Source: Actinoplanes ianthinogenes
Lineage (GTDB): Bacteria > Actinomycetota > Actinomycetes > Mycobacteriales > Micromonosporaceae
Assembly (NCBI RefSeq): GCF_018324205.1
Contig: NZ_AP023356.1
Location: 1-64,000, forward strand
DNA length: 64,000 nt
Reading direction: 5' to 3'
Part shown: piece after piece, positions 9,440-34,375 of the stretch
Position numbering within the stretch: position 1 is the first letter of the stretch
How the letters are laid out: each line of letters begins with the position of its first letter
Notes under the pieces: model-generated
Database searches by the model: none
What the model was told of the DNA's origin: nothing
Seen by the model: the letters and a program-made list of their open reading frames with translations, nothing else
Position numbers and translations under genes: made by a program

Positions 9440-9498
9440 GTCCTCGCTTCCGGCCGGTCTGGTGGAGCCAGTCTGCCAGCGCGGCGCACCCGTTCCCG

Positions 9499-9757
9499 GC
9501 CCGGAAGGCCCGGGCGCGCGTAACGGTCCAGCCGGCGCGGCGGACATCGCGCGCTCAGCCCGGCCCGAAACGCCCGGACGCGCGTAGCGGTCCGGCCCGC
9601 GGCGGACATCGCGCGCTCAGCCCGGCCGGAAACGCCCGGACGCGCGTAACGGTCCGGCCGGTGCCGCGGACATCGCGCGCTCAGCCCGGCCGGAAACGCC
9701 CGGGCGCGCGTAACGGTCCGGCCGGTGCCGCGGACATCGCGCGCTCAGCCCGGCACG
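9499..9757. repeat. Four-copy tandem repeat, 62-64 bp period
   Basis: The element containing GGACATCGCGCGCTCAGCCC recurs at 9541, 9603, 9667 and 9731 (spacings 62, 64, 64 bp). It alternates with CGCGCGTAACGGTCC. Copies differ by a few bases. GCGCGC runs on either side could pair to form stems. The array fills the space between the M15 gene start and the PadR gene end. Frames crossing it are open but low-complexity and look non-coding. Nothing recognisable lies in 9758-9848. Confidence 0.8.
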
Positions 9758-30074: not shown

Positions 30075-31520
30075 ATGGCAACTCCCCCGAGCTCCCTGCG
30101 TGCGGCCTGGATCGCCCTGACCGGGCTGTCCGCCGTCTTCCTCTTCGAGATGCTCGACACCTCGATCCTCACCGTCGCGCTCCCCACGATCGGGCGCGAC
30201 CTGCACGCCTCCACCGTCGCCCTGCAATGGGTCACCGGCGCGTACGCGGTCGTCTTCGGCGGCCTCATGCTGGCCTTCGGCGCGCTCGCCGACCGCTTCG
30301 GCCGCCGCCGGTTCATGCTGATCGGCCTGGTCCTGCTCGGCGCGACCAGCCTGGCGACCGCGTTCGTCGGCACCGCCGAGCAGCTCATCGCGGTCCGGGC
30401 GCTGACCGGCGTCGCCGCCGCGATGACCACCCCCGGCTCGATGGCACTGGCCTTCCGCCTCTTCGACGACGACCGCCTGCGCGTCCGGGCCACCACGCTC
30501 ATCTCCACCGTCGGCCTGGTCGGCCTCGCGATCGGCCCGACCGCCGGCGGCCTGGTCCTCACGGTCGCACCGTGGCAGGTCCTGCTGCTGGTGAACGTGC
30601 CGATCGCCGCGCTCGCCTTCCTCGGCATCCGGGCCGGCATCGCCGCCGACGACCCGGCCGACCTGCACCGCGACCCGGTCGACGTGGCCGGCGCGGCGCT
30701 CGGCACCACCACCATCGGCCTGGCGCTGCTGGCGCCGACCCTGTTCGTGGACGGCTCACCGGCGCGCTGGCCGGTCGCCGTCGCGGCCGTGGTGACCGCC
30801 GTGCTCTTCGTCCTGCGCCAGCGCACCGCCCGGCACCCACTGCTCGACCTCAAGCTGGTCGGGCAGCCGCTGGTCGCCGGCGGCCTGGCCGACAAGGCCG
30901 CCGCCGCCCTGGCCACCGCGGGCCTCGGCTACCTGGTCACCCTCCAGCTCCAGCTGGACTGGGGCTGGACCCCCGCGCAGGCCGCGCTCGGCCTGCTGCC
31001 GCAGGTCGTCGTGCTGGTCGCGGGCGGCGCGGTCGTCGACCCGTTCGTCCGCCGGGTCGGCCTGGACCGGGCCGCCTGGATGAGCGCCACCGCGGTGGTC
31101 GCCGGTCTGGCCGTCTACACCCTGTTCGGCCGGCTCGGCTACGCCTGGGTCGCGCTCGCCCTCGCACTGGTGGCCGCCGGCCTGCGCGTGGTCGGTGTGG
31201 TCGCCGCCGTGAACGTCCTCCGCGGCCTGCCCAGGAGCCGGACCACGATCGGCGCGGCCCTCACCGACACCGCAACCGAGGTCACCTCGGGCGCCGGCCT
31301 CGCCATCGCCGGCACCGTCCTGGCCGCCGTGTTCACCGGCGACCTCGCCACCGACCACTGGACTCCCCAGCAGACCGCCGAGTTCGCCACGGCGTCCCGG
31401 GTCGCCGGGCTGGTGCTCACCCTGACCGCGGCCGCGCTCGTCGCCTGGGCCTACCGCCGCACGCACCGCCCCGCACCGGCGCCCGAGCCGCGGCCTGCCG
31501 AGGCGCCGGTCGGGGCCTAA
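30075..31520 (+). CDS. DHA2-family MFS drug exporter (14 helices)
   Basis: 481 aa from ATG 30075; longer frames upstream run through the operator array. Motif A is GALADRFGRRRFMLIG, motif D1 region FEMLDTSILTVALPTIGRDL and motif C GLVGLAIGPTAGGLVL, all features of the 14-TM QacA/EmrB drug:H+ antiporters. Inner membrane. Control by the divergent TetR at 29246 is strongly suggested by the shared operator repeats. The stop codon TAA is also part of the -10 box (TAAGCT) of the next gene. Confidence 0.92.
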   Translation: MATPPSSLRAAWIALTGLSAVFLFEMLDTSILTVALPTIGRDLHASTVALQWVTGAYAVVFGGLMLAFGALADRFGRRRFMLIGLVLLGATSLATAFVGTAEQLIAVRALTGVAAAMTTPGSMALAFRLFDDDRLRVRATTLISTVGLVGLAIGPTAGGLVLTVAPWQVLLLVNVPIAALAFLGIRAGIAADDPADLHRDPVDVAGAALGTTTIGLALLAPTLFVDGSPARWPVAVAAVVTAVLFVLRQRTARHPLLDLKLVGQPLVAGGLADKAAAALATAGLGYLVTLQLQLDWGWTPAQAALGLLPQVVVLVAGGAVVDPFVRRVGLDRAAWMSATAVVAGLAVYTLFGRLGYAWVALALALVAAGLRVVGVVAAVNVLRGLPRSRTTIGAALTDTATEVTSGAGLAIAGTVLAAVFTGDLATDHWTPQQTAEFATASRVAGLVLTLTAAALVAWAYRRTHRPAPAPEPRPAEAPVGA

Positions 31521-31530
31521 GCTCAGCGCC

Positions 31531-32025
31531 ATGCTCGAATCCCAACGCGAACGTGTCCCGCTCAACGACGACGGCGAGCAGGACACCGCCCTGGCCTTCC
31601 TGTCCTTCGCCCGCTCGTGCGTCCTGAAGAAGGTCGGCGGTCTGGACGACGAGCAGCTGCGCCGCCGCCTGGTCGTCTCCGACACGACGCTGCTCGGCCT
31701 GGTCCAGCACCTGACCGACGCCGAACGCTACTGGTTCGGCTACACGGTCGGCGGCGACAAGCAGCACGCCGACGTGGACTTCACCATGATCGTGCCGGCG
31801 GACCGCCCCGCCGACCAGGTCATCGCCGACTATCGCACCGCGATCGCCGAGTCCGACGCCCACCTTCGGGCCGTCGGTGGCCTCGGCACACGCACCGCCC
31901 ACCCGGTCGGCGACGAACACCGCACGGTCCGCTGGGTCGTCGCCCACATGACCGGCGAGACCGTGCGCCACGCCGGCCACGCCGACATCCTCCGCGAACT
32001 GATCGACGGCGTCACCGGACGCTGA
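31531..32025 (+). CDS. DinB/DUF664 family protein (putative thiol-dependent enzyme)
   Basis: 164 aa four-helix bundle. Metal-ligand His positions of the DinB/mycothiol-dependent superfamily are visible: LLGLVQHLTDAERYWFGY and RWVVAHMTGETVRHAGHADILREL. Family members include mycothiol-dependent isomerases and S-transferases. The start ATG 31531 lies 7 nt after TAAGCT (31518-31523), a -10 box overlapping the previous stop, so a leaderless transcript is likely. The stem-loop array begins 23 bp after the stop. Confidence 0.85.
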   Translation: MLESQRERVPLNDDGEQDTALAFLSFARSCVLKKVGGLDDEQLRRRLVVSDTTLLGLVQHLTDAERYWFGYTVGGDKQHADVDFTMIVPADRPADQVIADYRTAIAESDAHLRAVGGLGTRTAHPVGDEHRTVRWVVAHMTGETVRHAGHADILRELIDGVTGR

Positions 32026-32047
32026 GAGCCCACCCCCAACCCGTCAC

Positions 32048-32549
32048 GGCTGGCACTCACGGCCCTATGCGGGGCGGGGATAGGGCGCTCAACACCAGCC
32101 CGGACCTCAGCCGAGCACCAACCCGACAAACCCGGCTGGCACTCACGGCCCTATGCACGCCCGGAATAGGGCGCTGAACACCAGCCCGACCGTCACGGCT
32201 GGCACTCACGGCCCTATGCGGGGCGGGGATAGGGCGCTCAACACCAGCCCGGACCTCAGCCCCGAGCACCAACCCGACAAACCCGGCTGGCACTCACGGC
32301 CCTATGCACGCCCGGAATAGGGCGCTCAACACCAGCCCGACCGTCACGGCTGGCACTCACGGCCCTATACACGCCGGCGATAGGGCGCTCAACACCAGCC
32401 CGAGCCTCGGCCGAGCACCAACCCGACAAACCCGGCTGGCACTCACGGCCCTATGCACGCCCGGAATAGGGCGCTCAACACCAGCCCGACGATCACGGCT
32501 GGCGCTGGTGGCCCTATGCGAGGCGGGGATAGGGCGCTGAGCGCCAGCT
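32048..32549. repeat. Array of seven 53-bp stem-loops in a 149-151 bp higher-order repeat
   Basis: Each unit is 53 bp: GGCTGG at the left end, GGCCCTAT before the loop, ATAGGGC after it and CCAGCC at the right end (CCAGCT in the last). Units lie at 32048, 32134, 32197, 32285, 32348, 32434 and 32497. Spacers alternate 33-35 bp (ccgagcaccaacccgacaaa type) and 10 bp. Loops alternate too: G-rich GCGGGGCGGGG in units 1 and 3 (near copy in 7), GCACGCCCGGA in 2, 4 and 6, another in 5. In the last unit the outer stem extends to 9 bp. Frames across it are open on both strands but only mirror the repeat. Confidence 0.9.
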
Positions 32550-32900
32550 CAGGTCTTGGCGGTCTGCACTCTCTGAGCGGACCGCGCGCCATCGGAACCG
32601 CGGGTCGCAACCGGCGGCCGCGACGGTGACCCGAAGCTGCGTGGCACGGCAAGCGACGGTGAACCGCAGCTGCGTGGCTGGGGCGCGCGAGCGGCGACCA
32701 GCCGCCGATGCCGGCCGTGACCGGCACTCGCCCGGCGAGCTGCGGCCAGTCGTGGTCGCGGATCGGCGGCGCCCGACGATGTCGGAGGTGCGGGTCCAGG
32801 CGGTGTGCACCAGTTGTGGCCGCAGCGCCAGGTCGGTGGCGGCGAGCGCGGCGGCGGCTTCCAGGTCGGTGGCCCGGGCGATCCGGGCGTCCAGGACCAT
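32514..32900 (-). pseudogene. Probable gene remnant with 11-residue repeat
   Basis: From the right, minus-strand sequence reads GLTALEEQPRCG, MVLDARIARATDLEAAAALAATDLALRPQLVHTAWTRTSDIVG with good coding composition, also open upstream of ATG 32900. It then degenerates into Arg/Thr-rich sequence. Two direct repeats of 26 bp (32620-32645 and 32653-32678, period 33 bp) encode RATQLRFTVAC / RATQLRVTVAA. The frame ends inside the hairpin array. No family recognised. Likely the decayed 5' part of a gene; could also be a small real protein. Confidence 0.35.
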
Positions 32901-32978
32901 GCCGCACCGGGGCTGTTCCTCGAGCGCGGTCAGTCCCCCTTGCGCGCTTGCAGGCCGCTGGTCGCTACCGGGCCGTTC

Positions 32979-33746
32979 TCAGACCGACGCGAAGCGGGCC
33001 GCGAAGGCGACCGCGCCGACGTCACCGTCCCGCAGCCGGACCGCGATGGCGGACTCCCCGATGTTCTCCAGCGTGCGTGCCGCGAAGTTGATCGCGGCCG
33101 GTTCCCGGCGCAGCAGCTGTTTGGCGAGCCGCGCCTGGGTGGACCGCAGCGTGGCGAAGGCGCACTGATCGAGACCCGCCACGAACTCGTCGCTCAGGGT
33201 CCCGTCCAGAGCGTGCTCCACGACCAGCTCGCGCAGCCACTCCGGCCAGTAGCCGTATTTCCCGACGATCTTGCCGGCGTGGATGGCCTCGGCCGGGGTG
33301 CGCCCCGCGTGCAGCAGTTGCGCGGTGACCGGCACGTCCAGGTGGGTGACCCGCAGCGCGGAGACGAAGATGCGCAGCAGCACGACCGCGCCGAACCGGG
33401 GTTCCATCTCGGCGGCGGCGCGGGCGTACTCGCCGTCCATCACCCAGGAGACCACCTCGGCCTCGGCCAGGGCGGCCGGGTCGACCCCGCGCGAGCCGAG
33501 CCGGTCGATCGTCTCGCGGAGCCGGCTGCGCGCCTTGTCGTACCGGTCGCGCAGGCCCTCGCTGTTCGCCTTGTTGCGGAACAGGATGGCGGTGTCGGCG
33601 GCGATGTCCGCTTCCCGTTGCAGCAGCTGCGAGGTGATCCTGGGCAGCAGGAGCTCGGTCAGGCCGATGGTGAGGATCGCCTCGTCGAAGCGGTCGGTGG
33701 CCGTCTCGAACTGATGCCACCAGTCGACGGAGTGCTCGCTGGACAT
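32979..33746 (-). CDS. Hypothetical helical protein (255 aa)
   Basis: Cytosolic, charged and helical: WWHQFETATDRFDEAILTIGLTELLLPRITSQLL, FRNKANSEGLRDRYDKARSRLRETIDRLG, IVGKYGYWPEWLRELVVEHAL, RLAKQLLRREPAAINFAARTLENIG. No catalytic motif, membrane segment or known family recognised. Start at ATG 33746 (MSSEHSVDWW) is more natural than 33779. Transcribed alone; a copy of the dispersed motif lies about 80 bp upstream. Confidence 0.65.
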   Translation of the reverse strand: MSSEHSVDWWHQFETATDRFDEAILTIGLTELLLPRITSQLLQREADIAADTAILFRNKANSEGLRDRYDKARSRLRETIDRLGSRGVDPAALAEAEVVSWVMDGEYARAAAEMEPRFGAVVLLRIFVSALRVTHLDVPVTAQLLHAGRTPAEAIHAGKIVGKYGYWPEWLRELVVEHALDGTLSDEFVAGLDQCAFATLRSTQARLAKQLLRREPAAINFAARTLENIGESAIAVRLRDGDVGAVAFAARFASV

Positions 33747-33822
33747 GAGACCTCCCGGTACGCCGAATGCAAGCCTCATCGACCGGGCACACGGCGACCT
33801 GCGGATCCGCCGGCCGGTGGCT

Positions 33823-33840
33823 GCCGGGCGTACCGGAAAG
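33823..33840 (-). repeat. Dispersed motif copy after LURP-one gene
   Basis: Minus strand CTTTCCGGTACGCCCGGC, 32 bp after the LURP-one stop and in its orientation. Confidence 0.45.
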
Positions 33841-33871
33841 CAACGAACCGGAACCCGGAGCGAACCCTGAG

Positions 33872-34375
33872 TCAGTCGCCGACCCCGCGGTTCATGGCCA
33901 GGTCCAGCGCCAGGACGCTGCCGATGATCAGCAGCGGGTCGATGCCGGCGGTGATCTGGACGGCGTAGGTGTCGTGGAGGGTGAGCCAGCGCTTGGAGAC
34001 CGAGGCGACCTCGGTGCCACCCTGCTCGATCACGTACTCGTGATCCAGCAGGTTGCCCTTCATCTCCAGGTCGTCCGGGCCGGGCACGTCGATGACGAAC
34101 TTGTCCCGGAACGGGGTGAACATCTTCTTGCGCACCTCGGCGGCCTTCTCCCCGCCGATCCGGACCTCGTAGGTCGGGCGCATCGCGACCAGATGCCGGT
34201 GCACGCTGGCCACCTCGGCGCCGGTCAGGTCCTCGATCACCACCCGGTTCCGCAGGCTGAGCACCTTGCCGTCCACGTGGAAGACCTTCGTGCCGTTCTC
34301 GTCGAGCACGTCGAAGTCGTCACCGATGGCGAACAATCGTTCCCTGATCACATACATGGTTCGATTGTCCGCCAT
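33872..34375 (-). CDS. LURP-one-related (Tubby-like C-terminal) protein
   Basis: 167 aa. MYVIRERLFAIGDDFDVLDENGTKVFHVDGKVLSLRNRVVIEDLTGAEVASVHRHL is the repeated beta-hairpin pattern of LURP-one/phospholipid scramblase-like proteins. It continues with FVIDVPGPDDLEMKGNLLDHEYVIEQGG and a hydrophobic C-terminal helix (GIDPLLIIGSVLALDLAMN). Such proteins form a membrane-associated beta barrel around a central helix; bacterial function unknown. Start ATG 34375 or 34357. It lies 12 bp after the FGGY kinase gene, suggesting an operon. Confidence 0.85.
   Translation of the reverse strand: MADNRTMYVIRERLFAIGDDFDVLDENGTKVFHVDGKVLSLRNRVVIEDLTGAEVASVHRHLVAMRPTYEVRIGGEKAAEVRKKMFTPFRDKFVIDVPGPDDLEMKGNLLDHEYVIEQGGTEVASVSKRWLTLHDTYAVQITAGIDPLLIIGSVLALDLAMNRGVGD

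Follow-up and report, generated by a model that had tools for sequence, protein, structure and literature searches.

A candidate REP/BIME-like family of 53-bp extragenic palindromes in Actinoplanes

Families of extragenic palindromes as dense as the one considered here are known chiefly from Proteobacteria, and their spread there is generally attributed to a RAYT; such REP/BIME elements characteristically bind gyrase, IHF or Pol I. In the literature from which the comparison is drawn (PMC2817692, PMC3733652), the REP/BIME sequences of E. coli, Pseudomonas and Stenotrophomonas are extragenic, imperfect palindromes that reach high copy number, often form arrays with regular spacing, are enriched downstream of genes, are species-specific in sequence and undergo complementary changes in their arms, and these features are shared by a set of units in Actinoplanes. 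The text searched of the same two REP surveys makes no mention of Actinobacteria. Differences are also evident. A REP is 20-40 bp with a GTAG or CGTC tag, whereas the Actinoplanes unit is 53 bp, has no tag and ends in GGCTGG/CCAGCC; BIME units alternate in orientation, whereas those of Actinoplanes repeat in one; and REP/BIME elements go with a RAYT/Y1 transposase that the Actinoplanes ianthinogenes genome lacks. REPINs (PMC3116915), which are REP pairs tied to RAYT, resemble the units in that two inverted halves form one dispersed high-copy element. They differ in the matter of the Y1 transposase and in that the half-sites of the Actinoplanes units have no evident palindrome of their own. A further likeness is to integron attC, an imperfect palindrome with two paired boxes around an unpaired middle that goes with a cognate integrase and gene cassettes, but the Actinoplanes units have no cassettes between them and occupy hundreds of dispersed loci. 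The 53-bp family is apparently an undescribed counterpart of REP/BIME without the usual transposase; the open-licence literature yielded nothing relevant on Actinoplanes repeats, with earlier description elsewhere being possible.

The window, i.e. the whole stretch of 64,000 nucleotides that was analysed, starts at position 1 of contig NZ_AP023356.1 and contains one array of these units between two convergent genes. Gene calls, here and throughout, come from a purpose-written codon-usage script and not from a published annotator.

31531-32025, plus strand: upstream gene, mycothiol-S-transferase/DinB superfamily (Pfam MST, 5e-36); 22 bp separate its stop codon and unit 1
32048-32100, plus strand: unit 1, 53 bp, loop GCGGGGCGGGG
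32101-32133, no strand: 33-bp spacer
32134-32186, plus strand: unit 2, 53 bp, loop GCACGCCCGGA
32187-32196: 10-bp spacer
32197-32249, plus strand: unit 3, 53 bp, loop GCGGGGCGGGG
32250-32284: 35-bp spacer
32285-32337, plus strand: unit 4, 53 bp, loop GCACGCCCGGA
32338-32347: 10-bp spacer
32348-32400, plus strand: unit 5, 53 bp, loop ACACGCCGGCG, where the alternation is broken
32401-32433: second 33-bp spacer
32434-32486, plus strand: unit 6, 53 bp, loop GCACGCCCGGA
32487-32496: 10-bp spacer
32497-32549, plus strand: unit 7, 53 bp, loop GCGAGGCGGGG, arms better paired, terminal CCAGCT
32979-33746, minus strand: convergent downstream gene, 255 aa, no Pfam match, ending 429 bp from unit 7

A preliminary description had noted seven units of exactly 53 bp at 32048-32549 with spacers of 33-35 bp and 10 bp, and the measured coordinates agree: successive starts are 86, 63, 88, 63, 86 and 63 bp apart, leaving spacers of 33, 10, 35, 10, 33 and 10 bp and a pair period of 149-151 bp. 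Its alternation of loops holds for two loop types, but unit 5 has ACACGCCGGCG in place of the G-rich loop, and the pairing of unlike hairpins that it took as the duplicating unit, though real here, is local: other arrays mostly repeat every 63 or 64 bp, and the two-tier arrangement is a product of local duplication history and no general rule. The boxes GGCTGG/CCAGCC and GCCCTAT/ATAGGGC are conserved as it stated, save that unit 7 terminates in CCAGCT. On both strands of the 64-kb window there are 13 occurrences of GGCTGG-N41-CCAGC, all inside the array, with 0.1 expected from shuffles. A CRISPR array has unique spacers of constant length separating identical repeats, whereas spacers here recur (and most arrays have spacers of about 10 bp), so its exclusion of CRISPR holds. 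A coding explanation was rejected, given that 64-bp steps disrupt any reading frame and that no gene was called across the array. Elsewhere in the window, at 9495-9754, is a further tandem array with a period of 63-64 bp, of sequence unrelated to the 53-bp units.

A search of the genome and of relatives, which the preliminary description had recommended, uncovered a genome-wide family with carriers among congeners, and brought out what that description had missed: about 250 arrays, convergent placement and inner boxes specific to species. GGCTGG-N41-CCAGCC has 768 exact copies in the A. ianthinogenes genome against 9 for a control, compared with the more than 100 extragenic copies by which REP/BIME families are recognised, and GGCCCTAT-N{5,20}-ATAGGGC has 208 forward matches in the 9.9 Mb, with none for the reversed control and a loop of 11 nt in all matches listed. 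A spaced sample (stretches at fixed steps across 3.1-9.9 Mb plus the window, 864 kb in all) contained 22 arrays with 155 units; extrapolation, in which the window's own array is counted, puts the totals at about 250 arrays and about 1,800 units, or close to 1% of the genome's DNA. Arrays comprise from 1 to 12 units and are internally homogeneous, with copy number varying between arrays. Looser definitions of the unit pick up chance matches within genes, mostly single, and these were excluded from counts.

The geometry is rigid. Units start with RGCTGG and finish with CCAGCY, and are laid out as 6+8+7+11+7+8+6, i.e. GGCTGG, 8 nt, inner box, 11 nt, matching inner box, 8 nt, CCAGCC. When the three inner segments were left free in length, the left middle segment was 8 and the loop 11 in 113/113 and the right middle segment was 8 in 112/113, even with loop and middle sequences being unconserved, and histograms of the gap between GGCTGG and CCAGCC in four genomes have a single sharp peak at 41, to which one congener (G067) adds a small shoulder at 40. 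Some copies in the latter (L210-L227) have a palindrome that apparently runs a few bases past 53 bp, followed by GC-rich flanks. Orientation is likewise uniform, 50 of the 53 arrays with a majority arm order being pure in that order.

The family is best read as genus-restricted, REP/BIME-like extragenic palindromes. Among 68 Actinoplanes genomes searched for GGCTGG-N41-CCAGCC, ten have 60-768 copies (beyond the 768 of A. ianthinogenes, nine congeners have 597, 554, 437, 272, 246, 162, 97, 96 and 60), another four have 28-36 and the remainder do not rise above background, nor do about 390 genomes from elsewhere in the order, including 78 of the same family. A search of 84,980 species for a pair of complete units with a 63-bp step gave 118 stretches, and the 80 listed are all from Actinoplanes (A. 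xinjiangensis, palleronii, utahensis, liguriensis, flavus, aureus and regularis). The unit of the A. ianthinogenes type had no match in the other species searched, a set from which the window's own genome may have been missing. The inner box differs between species: GCCCTAT in A. ianthinogenes, GCTGTCT in xinjiangensis, GGTGCCT/GGTGTCT in palleronii, GTGGTTA in liguriensis, GTGGTGT in genome G078 and GGCGTTA/GTCGTCA in G067. In a single-gene tree A. ianthinogenes groups with G011 and G078, and G067 with G017 and G033, the other carriers being scattered. In the two nearest relatives no array adjoins the counterpart of the upstream gene, but what lies downstream is different, and so neither can be taken for an empty version of the window locus.

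In the spaced sample 16 of 20 callable arrays lie between convergent genes, an arrangement of only 132 of 721 adjacent gene pairs (18%; p 4e-9), and the same holds elsewhere (6/9 in G011, 10/18 in G067, 6/8 in G078, 22/40 in xinjiangensis and 10/15 in palleronii; all p<0.004), where certain G067 stretches were picked for having hits, which biases density in that genome and context counts less so. Divergent gaps rarely contain arrays, one quarter of the A. ianthinogenes convergent gaps of at least 60 bp contain units, and overlap with a gene was seen for just 1 of the 22 spaced-sample arrays, on a weak call. For 13 of 20 A. ianthinogenes arrays the nearest stop codon is more than 100 bp away, a point against the reading preferred below.

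The reading preferred here, to which a probability of about 0.5 is given, is that the array consists of amplified REP/BIME-like hairpins marking 3′ ends between convergent genes. The window array would be a tandem amplification of a dispersed, Actinoplanes-specific 53-bp extragenic palindrome, REP/BIME-like in working, with unequal recombination or slippage between adjacent copies generating the tandem copies. Transcripts entering from either side would fold into a hairpin, marking the two 3′ ends and keeping them apart, whether by bidirectional termination or by 3′-end protection, and the duplex or folded strand may also be read by a protein whose specificity varies between species. At gene 3′ ends the units would then act as a bidirectional hairpin and, because their spacing is fixed, probably also as a protein site. 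Intrinsic bidirectional terminators are similarly strong GC-rich hairpins between convergent genes, but the Actinoplanes units differ in having no U-tract, a constant 53 bp, constant GGCTGG ends and tandem arrangement. No U-tract follows the hairpins and a terminator scan of 31000-34000 found no terminator, so that any genuine termination would fall outside the predictions of the standard model. The units have no Rfam match, which, with the lack of a conserved loop, leaves the earlier suggestion of a multi-copy sRNA unsupported; the resolvase site also suggested, though conceivable, gained no positive evidence.

How far the units are stem-loops, as first described, depends on the part considered. 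The outer box is nearly invariant and, its first base apart, about 99% paired, and the inner box is paired at about 99% in its first four positions and less nearer the loop. The 8 nt between the boxes, however, pair at only 0.36 in A. ianthinogenes arrays, against 0.75 in four single copies, and a single copy in that genome has a perfect fold (-57.7 kcal/mol, z -11). In G067, pairing is better within a unit than between arms taken from different units (0.90 vs 0.69 in the middle, 0.85 vs 0.64 in the inner part; 0/1000 permutations reach the observed values), and the middle part in G011 behaves likewise. This covariation argues that pairing is maintained there through compensatory change, though intra-palindrome correction during replication could contribute. 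The complementary mutations familiar from REP/BIME are thus present in G067 and G011 and missing from the middle part in A. ianthinogenes, where arms give no covariation signal even though length is unchanged. A pure terminator hairpin would not need to keep the length of a middle segment that is mostly unpaired and does not covary, and invariant spacing despite unpaired middle nucleotides suggests reading by a protein. Because some species preserve pairing and others preserve length alone, a hairpin role and a protein-site role are both entertained here. The original proposal of selective pressure on structure or on binding by a protein is supported by the fixed geometry in several species and the arm covariation in a relative. 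An arm polarity, with CTGG/CTGA on one arm and CTCA on the other, is heterotypic at 0.85 in A. ianthinogenes and 0.73 in G078 (0.50 expected) and absent from four other species sets, so it looks inherited and not general, and was rejected as a general X/Y feature.

The rigid geometry also bears on an account in which the hairpin is incidental and each unit is bound as duplex DNA by a dimeric or oligomerising protein, e.g. gyrase or a nucleoid protein, loading at convergent junctions to relieve positive supercoiling or anchor loops, as proposed for BIME-2. This is judged doubtful, even though a 63-bp period is six helical turns and would place units on one helix face, steps of 63 or 64 bp dominate in two genomes (108/132 unit-to-unit distances in A. 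ianthinogenes and 26/31 in G078), the 53-bp frame is free of indels around unconserved loop and middle sequences, and arms are retained in arrays lacking middle pairing and placed convergently. As a counterpoint, strong base-pair covariation in G067 and G011 implies that pairing itself matters there, inner boxes vary by species whereas gyrase is conserved, spacing is mostly 107-109 bp in G011 and sometimes 105 bp in G067, and the 63-bp period could descend from an ancestral duplication. It is possible, if only tentatively so, that the units are sites of a putative Actinoplanes-specific protein recognising a rigid 53-bp palindrome at convergent junctions in a private inner-box dialect for each species, and either spreading its sites without Y1 or organising the chromosome.

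A different type of explanation, considered unlikely, treats the units as mobile elements resembling MITEs or REPINs, non-autonomous and without host function, whose transposase recognises GGCTGG plus the inner box, their intergenic placement reflecting selection against insertions elsewhere. Patchy copy number across the genus, from background to 768, would fit, as would fixed ends and length, inner boxes that differ by species as REPs differ with their RAYT, and the dispersed near-identical copies of G067. Candidate mobilisers fared poorly, however. Y1 transposase (RAYT, PF01797) has no hit in A. ianthinogenes and none in the carriers G078, G090 and G076, and was rejected in that role; a reverse transcriptase or retron-like origin was rejected as PF00078 does not track carriers and is absent from five. 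Target-site duplications, a trait of DDE-type MITEs, were sought as perfect repeats of 2-15 bp and not found at 15 single copies in G067 and 7 in G011, the few single copies that could be tested. Nor did the 864 kb contain a lone half-site resembling the end of an autonomous element, since every one either belonged to a degenerate unit or looked like a chance match, and an element so bounded was rejected. Phage and plasmid origins were set aside too, with no hits for the A. ianthinogenes-type unit in viral contigs and plasmid matches no more numerous than chance.

Many of the unit arrays in A. ianthinogenes have beside them another dispersed element, about 150 bp long (L025:5845-5990, plus strand; L018:2763-2910 and L017:6250-6399, minus strand). 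It has a stem that covaries, with both sides changed at 7 pairs, long invariant stretches and no Rfam family, and matches occur in 27 of 61 genomes searched, some with at least 10 copies. In G024 two inverted copies flank an intergenic stretch of about 0.8 kb (L051:1580-2490) in a manner resembling terminal repeats, and in two congeners it is adjoined by different tandem arrays, with 50-bp and 17-bp periods (L032:1677-1845, L031:1673-1828).

That the arrays are simply neutral tandem repeats, arising by slippage in tolerant intergenic DNA and dispersed by occasional gene conversion, is very improbable. Internal homogeneity and variable copy number are compatible with it, but a 53-bp frame common to several species with different sequence and almost no length variation, arm covariation and a strong convergent bias all speak against it.

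If an actinomycete genus has a family of similar scale to those of Proteobacteria, invariant in geometry and species-specific in its cores but lacking a RAYT, then there is more than one route by which such families originate. The presence of carriers and non-carriers in one genus amounts to a natural experiment on dense hairpin arrays at convergent gene ends.
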